This document shows positions 49,085 to 50,383 of a stretch of DNA of 64,000 nt, one piece after another. Position 1 is the first letter of the stretch. Every line of letters starts with the position of its first letter. This stretch comes from Candidatus Altimarinota bacterium. Lineage in GTDB: Bacteria > Patescibacteriota > Gracilibacteria > BD1-5 > UBA2023. A program made the position numbers and the translations under genes. Under the pieces are notes generated by a model. The model was not told the DNA's origin. It saw only the letters and a list, made by a program, of their open reading frames with translations, and ran no database searches. The stretch is taken from contig JACMPW010000008.1 in the NCBI GenBank assembly GCA_014377305.1, positions 1 to 64,000 on the forward strand, given 5' to 3'.

Positions 49085-50383
49085 TTATTTGAGATTTTCG
49101 AGTGAGTTTTTACAAATAATGCTATCAGTTTTTAGTTGACTGCAAAATATCACTAAGTCCTTTTTGGCTACAGAGGAAAGGAGTGCATAACTATGTATTC
49201 ATTCATAGTATGAATATTTCTGAGATTCGGTGAGTTTTTTGACGAGTGATTCCGATTTTTCGAGATGATTGCTCGTAAAATGTTTCATCATTGTAATTCC
49301 GATTCATTTGAGACAGAATCTGCTATCATAACTCGATAAATCACTCTGAGTACAGAACTGGATAACTCAAGAGAAATCTCATAGATGATTCCGCAAATAT
49401 CCAAGATGAGCATAGAGAAAGCAAGTTGGCTTCTCATCTCCTTTGGCTATTTTGCAACGAGCGAATGGATCGCTTGGATCCCAGCCCAGAGAATCAGCTC
49501 CTGCATGTCCCGTATCTCACCAGAACATCTCCATCCAAACTCACTCAAAACAACGATATACAAACGTACTATTTGACATGGTACGACATGCAAGCAGTGA
49601 TTTTTCGACATTCCGTTTCGTAGAAAACATGATACCGTGACCAACTCCATGATAACAACTTCCCTGATGCTTACTCGGGATTCCGGAACACACCGACTCG
49701 GGGTTTTCTTGGAGTTCGCTATGATGCAAAAATAGCTCCTCAAGGATTCCATGCATATATCATCAAGCACAGACATCATCTACAGATGTATTCTCTATAT
49801 TCCCATTGGACCAAGTCATCGCACGAGAAAATCCAAAGAGCTCATACGCTCGATGTCCGAGATCATGGGACATATCATGACAATTGCGGGAGAGTTTGGT
49901 ATCTGATTCGAGTGTTTTGATCATGTGTGAGATGCTCGTATCATCATGTGGATCGAGGATAGCGAGGAACTTATCCCGAGTTTTTTTGAGATTTTCTTGA
50001 GTCTTATCGATAGGAATAAATGGTTTATTTGGATCAATCACCCAAATTATACCACGATGATTGGATTTTTCATGATTGTGATAGGCATAGGTTCCAGTTG
50101 TTTTGAATACATATACAAATACCCCACCAGGTACATACGCCCTACGGGCATCAAAAGGTGAAAAATCTGTATGAAGTGGGTGCGGATCTGATGCTGTCCA
50201 CATAGGAATCTCTGATTGATTCCAGAAAAATAAAGGCTTTCCAATAGGAATCTCTACAAAGTCTAAAGTATATCCAGAATTGGTATAGATAATATTTTGG
50301 ATCGGGGAATCAATTCTGCTCATCAAGTCTGTCGACTGAACGAATGGAAAAAAAGCAACTAATAATCAAATAAAGCAATACAT
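49085..50383 (-). CDS. Exported cupredoxin-like protein fused to a Cys/His-rich domain
   Basis: 432 aa. Signal peptide (MYCFIGLLVAFFPFVQS). Residues ~20-105 are cupredoxin-like: PLFFWNQSEIPMWTASDPHPLHT and GTYAYHNHEKSNHRGIIWVID, but the type-1 copper Cys and Met positions are not canonical (HNHxxxNHRG). Residues ~170-330 hold NCHDMSHDLGHRAYELFG, CAGYMHGILEELFLHH and GSCYHGVGHGIMF, then several Cys pairs (CRTM, RCFEG, ARCKIAKGDEKPTC). The repeated CHxxxHxxGH and CYHGVGHG look like metal or heme ligation. UGA-Gly codons are essential to link the parts. Function unknown; likely redox or metal handling at the surface. Confidence 0.7.

Follow-up and report, generated by a model that had tools for sequence, protein, structure and literature searches.

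A five-histidine, disulfide-stapled domain linked to Cys-less cupredoxins in a candidate metal-handling protein of Gracilibacteria

A gene on the minus strand of the window, the 64,000-nucleotide stretch of Candidatus Altimarinota bacterium DNA analyzed here, encodes a protein in which a cupredoxin is joined to a second domain, termed the CHH domain, that carries five highly conserved histidines. We give even chances to the interpretation that this protein is exported and handles a metal, most likely copper, by means of a disulfide-stapled solenoid and a cupredoxin with a histidine site. A broader proposal, which we advance only tentatively, is that the protein houses a metal site of a new extracytoplasmic class. 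In this class, five histidines would be arrayed on successive stapled hairpins and would operate jointly with a four-histidine, Cys-less cupredoxin as a copper relay or enzyme. Such genes would have been amplified in tandem in a number of Patescibacteria and exchanged among lineages whose genetic codes differ.

The gene spans positions 49085-50383 (minus strand), stop codon included, and encodes 432 amino acids. All 432 codons are open under genetic code 25, with nine in-frame TGA codons read as glycine, and translation with table 11 yields fragments. The orthologue from another member of the same Gracilibacteria genus (L031/L126) is 79-81% identical, keeps the reading frame, and uses TGA at partly different glycine positions. 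The neighbors of the two genes also match: an Abhydrolase_2 carboxylesterase gene and a gene, named from its sequence, that resembles rRNA methyltransferases. A relative from Doudnabacteria (L032) is 55-59% identical, is encoded in the standard code, and has glycine codons at seven of the eight alignable TGA positions. Comparison of the window gene with its nearest relative, L031, gives a dN of 0.14 and a dS of 1.77 (NG86). The resulting dN/dS, about 0.08 although dS is close to saturation, shows strong purifying selection on the protein, and the orthologues together with this ratio rule out a sequencing or frame artefact.

Two of the 77 genomes of the order carry the gene, both in one genus, and its nearest relative outside that genus is the standard-code Doudnabacteria gene (tree support 100). 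The simplest reading of this distribution is horizontal transfer. The gene looks to have been acquired, with TGA codons spreading through it afterwards.

Residues 1-18 (50330-50383, minus strand) form a hydrophobic stretch that reads as a signal peptide or membrane anchor, and the Doudnabacteria relative also begins with a long hydrophobic stretch. The protein is thus predicted to be exported via this segment and to consist of a cupredoxin followed by the CHH domain. The initial annotation had described an exported two-domain protein with four named motifs, and this description holds in the frame opened by code 25. The motifs are YHNHEKSNHRG (residues 101-111), CHDMSHDLGH (168-177), CAGGYMHGILEELFLHH (205-221, which that annotation printed one glycine short), and CYHGVGHGIMF (243-253). 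The 'six further Cys' said to follow them are in fact eight, at positions 266, 278, 310, 321, 344, 357, 414, and 424. An extra cysteine, C232, lies between the second and third motifs of the CHH domain.

The CHH domain extends from about residue 127 to residue 432 (49088-50005, minus strand). It had been left unrecognized, with a Pfam HMM search of the C-terminal region recommended. This search finds no family in Pfam-A or NCBIfam that scores above chance with the window protein or with any of 22 related C-terminal domains. PHROGs and PADLOC hold no family for the domain, and a sequence search of the PDB returns a chance PPR match only. Relatives were not found among viral contigs and phage records, nor was a description of the family found in the open-access literature.

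A profile built from alignment A1 was run on sampled genomes of the phylum and of the class. The CHH domain is detected in 24 of 380 Patescibacteria genomes, two of these weakly, and in 16 of 242 genomes of the class. Most of these domains are just 17-27% identical to that of the window protein. Outside the phylum, where the search covered a collection of plasmids and a single pattern scan over genome contigs, relatives reside on a Kitasatospora plasmid (E 5e-18) and on a Gemmatirosa plasmid (E 1e-23, with another family member as the query).

Several genomes carry multiple CHH copies in tandem, with up to eight on one contig. Such arrays are present at L034, L035, L084, and L087, and TPR genes are found inside two of them. 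At L090:6031-7017, a CHH gene is located between genes resembling pheS and pheT. A diverged branch of the family comprises L047, L093, L123, and L124. The first histidine is replaced by serine in L047 and L093, and the CHH gene of L047 adjoins that of an SLH-domain protein.

Conservation was counted over 53 distinct CHH domains in window protein numbering, with related sequences counted as they are and not as independent events. The initial annotation had made its reading depend on conservation of the cysteines and histidines in homologues, and those of the motifs are the most conserved positions in this 53-member family. Invariant throughout are H173, H211, H245, H249, C232, C243, C266, C278, C310, C321, G248, and G281, and H169 is kept in 51 domains.

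Several of the cysteines are retained or lost in pairs. C168 and C205 are both present in 35 domains and both missing from 18; the corresponding numbers are 45 and 8 for C344 and C357, and 46 and 5 for a pair at positions 381 and 392. Mixed cases number zero for each of these pairs. The 381/392 pair is missing from the window protein, which has V and Y at these positions. C414 and C424 are kept wherever their alignment columns are filled. Because the paired losses occur without a mixed case, the cysteines at 168/205, 344/357, and 381/392 behave as disulfides and not as residues that jointly ligate a metal or heme. Disulfide pairing is predicted from spacing for 414/424 and for the three pairs that never vary (232/243, 266/278, and 310/321). 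The putative stapled hairpins C232-C243, C266-C278, C310-C321, C344-C357, and C414-C424 are encoded within 49112-49690 (minus strand).

Co-loss of the cysteine pairs speaks against a multiheme or Cys-ligated metal domain, and the c-type cytochrome motif CxxCH does not occur in the 432 residues of the window protein. Of the multi-metal or heme ligation by paired Cys and His envisaged in the initial annotation, the cysteine part thus falls away, while the conserved histidines do suggest a metal site. All fully invariant positions other than Cys and Gly are histidines (173, 211, 245, and 249), and nearly all remaining non-Cys, non-Gly positions are variable.

These histidines are distributed over three of four segments defined by family conservation, all on the minus strand. 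The first, CHDMSH (residues 168-173; 49865-49882), provides H169 and H173 as putative ligands, with C168 paired to C205. The second, CAGGYMHGILE (205-215; 49739-49771), contains C205, H211, and E215, and the third, CYHGVGHG (243-250; 49634-49657), contains C243, H245, and H249. The fourth, CFEGVWME (278-285; 49529-49552), contains C278, the invariant G281, and E285, which is kept in 41 of the 53 domains.

An AlphaFold2 model of the CHH domain, computed from a five-sequence input with a mean pLDDT of 75, predicts an alpha-hairpin solenoid with a helix period of about 35 residues. Four helices that follow one another in this model (43-58, 77-95, 112-129, and 147-162; adding 125 gives protein numbering) carry H169/H173, H211, H245/H249, and E285, respectively. 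Foldseek and VIA-align 2 retrieve generic alpha-repeats only, namely designed helical repeats (Z 7.5 over 113 residues) and HEAT, ARM, and TPR-like folds, at a level that the tool calls common. No known metalloenzyme is listed among these matches, a result that excludes none.

Alpha-solenoids mostly bind proteins, and a fold resembling HEAT, ARM, and TPR-like repeats could be a protein-protein interaction scaffold only, serving adhesion or surface assembly, with histidines that are structural. The TPR genes inside two CHH arrays would fit such a function. However, five near-invariant histidines would be unusual for a scaffold in domains that mostly share just 17-27% identity with that of the window protein and in which almost all other non-Cys, non-Gly positions vary, and a pure scaffold is rather unlikely.

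The cupredoxin domain (residues 30-117; 50033-50296, minus strand) is assigned by profile homology to a Cys-less family. The window protein alone has no match in Pfam. Searched against the PDB, a profile of 15 such domains detects amicyanin at 1.8e-7 and copper nitrite reductase (CuNIR) at 4.2e-8, and the Pfam model Cupredoxin_1 matches 13 of the 15 members (best 1.2e-7). By these profile matches, the domain can be placed in the cupredoxin superfamily, in agreement with its earlier description as cupredoxin-like. An earlier full-length structure model from three sequences left the cupredoxin unfolded and was set aside for that domain.

Type-1 (blue) copper sites are formed by one Cys and two His, usually with Met. 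The homology of the present family to amicyanin, plastocyanin, and the C-terminal cupredoxin of CuNIR runs over the whole domain, and the first ligand His is kept. Unlike in those proteins, N or D occupies the position of the Cys ligand, and conservation among the relatives extends to neither the second His nor the Met. HPxH and HxH are instead invariant in the cupredoxin alignment (A6). The window protein has HPLH (68-71; 50171-50182, minus strand) as the first half of this histidine set and HNH (102-104; 50072-50080, minus strand) as the second, with its N at the site of amicyanin's Cys ligand. Among 46 distinct relatives, HPxH is present in all 46 and H[ND]H in 45. The copper ligands had been called degenerate, but the type-1 set is absent from every relative. 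Since an alternative histidine set is conserved across them, the site is different and not decayed, which rules out a decayed blue copper domain. Cys-less cupredoxins with HPxH and H[ND]H are also widespread in Patescibacteria as stand-alone, exported-looking proteins (L005-L030).

Multicopper oxidases use two or more cupredoxin domains to complete a trinuclear copper site. The 'YHxH' of their N-terminal domain (HxH...HxH) aligns with the 'YH[ND]H' of the present family, which has HPxH instead of their HWH. The window protein has a single cupredoxin domain, the rest being helical, and so would not form a complete trinuclear site.

Cupredoxins and CHH domains are joined in several ways. Besides the window type, cupredoxin-first fusions are found in G181, G178, G318, G363, G355, G291, G301, G520, and G579. 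The order is reversed in G092 and G582, and a C-terminal cupredoxin is present in L042 and L122. The two domains are encoded by adjoining genes at L034, L043, L095, and L117. In a tree whose deep nodes are weak, fused proteins are scattered over five or more distinct positions. This recurrent fusion and adjacency is the strongest functional hint, and it points to copper. Many CHH genes of other genomes, on the other hand, have no adjoining cupredoxin. In two genera (L042:2483-3883 and L122:7881-9293), the gene directly upstream of the CHH-cupredoxin fusion encodes a membrane protein that is conserved ('AHGFGE[QR]IDLP[VI]PF'), measures about 470 amino acids, and has no Pfam match. The Gemmatirosa relative (L080:4668-5915) begins with a His/Met-rich segment (HNTPHDMPHAAAGGHASHEMH), and segments of this kind are typical of copper binding.

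The repeated fusion to cupredoxin could also be explained if the protein were a redox enzyme. Catalysis would then take place at the five-histidine site, on copper or non-heme iron and perhaps at a dinuclear center, while the cupredoxin would serve as an electron relay or second copper site. With two HxxxH elements, each on its own helix, and a single further His, the ligand set is reminiscent of coupled binuclear sites, and the glycines beside the histidines (HGxGHG, GxxHG) would leave space for a substrate or cofactor. Yet the model has no structural match to a known oxidase fold, a weak objection given its moderate quality, and E285, kept in 41 of 53 domains, is the only conserved candidate for a catalytic partner. 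The many tandem-array copies suit a binding role better, and catalysis appears unlikely.

The CHH relative from Kitasatospora belongs to the same starred clade of the tree as the window protein. In what is a single case, the gene immediately downstream of it encodes Caa3_CtaG (E 7e-74), and BlaI/CopY, M56, CcsB, and CopC genes are nearby. Although a neighbor there, Caa3_CtaG (PF09678) is an unrelated membrane protein, and it was not found in the 380 Patescibacteria genomes. COX1 is present in 5 of the 24 genomes with CHH domains versus 24 of the 356 others (p 0.03 with kinship ignored, and two families only). The overlap of COX1 with cupredoxin is 9 of 63 (p 0.01, kinship ignored) and is also weak. 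Neither COX1 nor a P-type ATPase was found in the window's own genome (G000, 93% complete), which leaves no obvious copper enzyme for the protein to serve.

By analogy with COA7, which binds heme, the CHH domain might bind heme rather than copper, or might act in delivering heme or copper to an oxidase. The CtaG and CcsB genes near the Kitasatospora gene would fit such a function. COA7 is an oxidized, Cys-rich Sel1-repeat protein of complex I and IV assembly whose disulfides join cysteines 9 or 11 residues apart (PMC6505684), close to the 9-12 residues seen here. Judged from co-loss and the model, the CHH domain may resemble COA7 and Helicobacter HcpB and HcpC, which have disulfide-locked Sel1-like repeats, in forming an alpha-hairpin solenoid outside the cytoplasm whose hairpins are each closed by a disulfide between cysteines about 10 residues apart. 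It differs in that the Sel1 model (PF08238) matches none of 22 CHH members at E<=1, so the family is not filed with Sel1-like repeats, and in that no Hcp or COA7 chain is among its PDB profile matches. When TPR, HEAT, and ARM repeat HMMs are applied to the same 22 members, TPR models match one member each, no better than chance (E 0.13-0.24). We know of no five-histidine motif or cupredoxin fusion in Hcp proteins or COA7. With CxxCH and Sel1 matches lacking, COX1 missing from the window's own genome, and a cupredoxin as the fusion partner, a heme-binding or COA7-like function is rather improbable.

In the favored reading of an exported metal-handling protein, the N-terminal hydrophobic segment would direct export, and oxidative folding outside the cell would staple the hairpins. 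The solenoid would comprise about eight repeats of about 35 residues, most with a disulfide that ties the end of helix A to the beginning of helix B. The proposed ligands are situated on B helices that follow one another: H169 and H173 in repeat 1, H211 in repeat 2, H245 and H249 in repeat 3, and perhaps E285 in repeat 4. Together they could coordinate a single metal ion or a pair of them. Homology and motif suggest that HPxH and H[N/D]H of the cupredoxin hold copper by four histidines, as in a multicopper oxidase half-site and not as in blue copper proteins. More speculatively, copper may pass from the cupredoxin to the solenoid or be taken from it. The protein could contribute to copper uptake, storage, or detoxification. 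The heme scavenging and action on host redox partners raised in the initial annotation are speculative.

CHH domains constitute a family, absent from all curated libraries checked, in which a putative metal site is clearly discernible, and the Cys-less cupredoxins to which they are linked are themselves widespread in Patescibacteria. The five histidine positions and seven cysteine pairs found across the family make the proposal directly testable. If copper is bound, the CHH domain would provide structural and bioinorganic chemists with a new kind of metal site, and it would show how host-dependent bacteria with reduced genomes manage copper at the cell surface when they lack P-type copper pumps.
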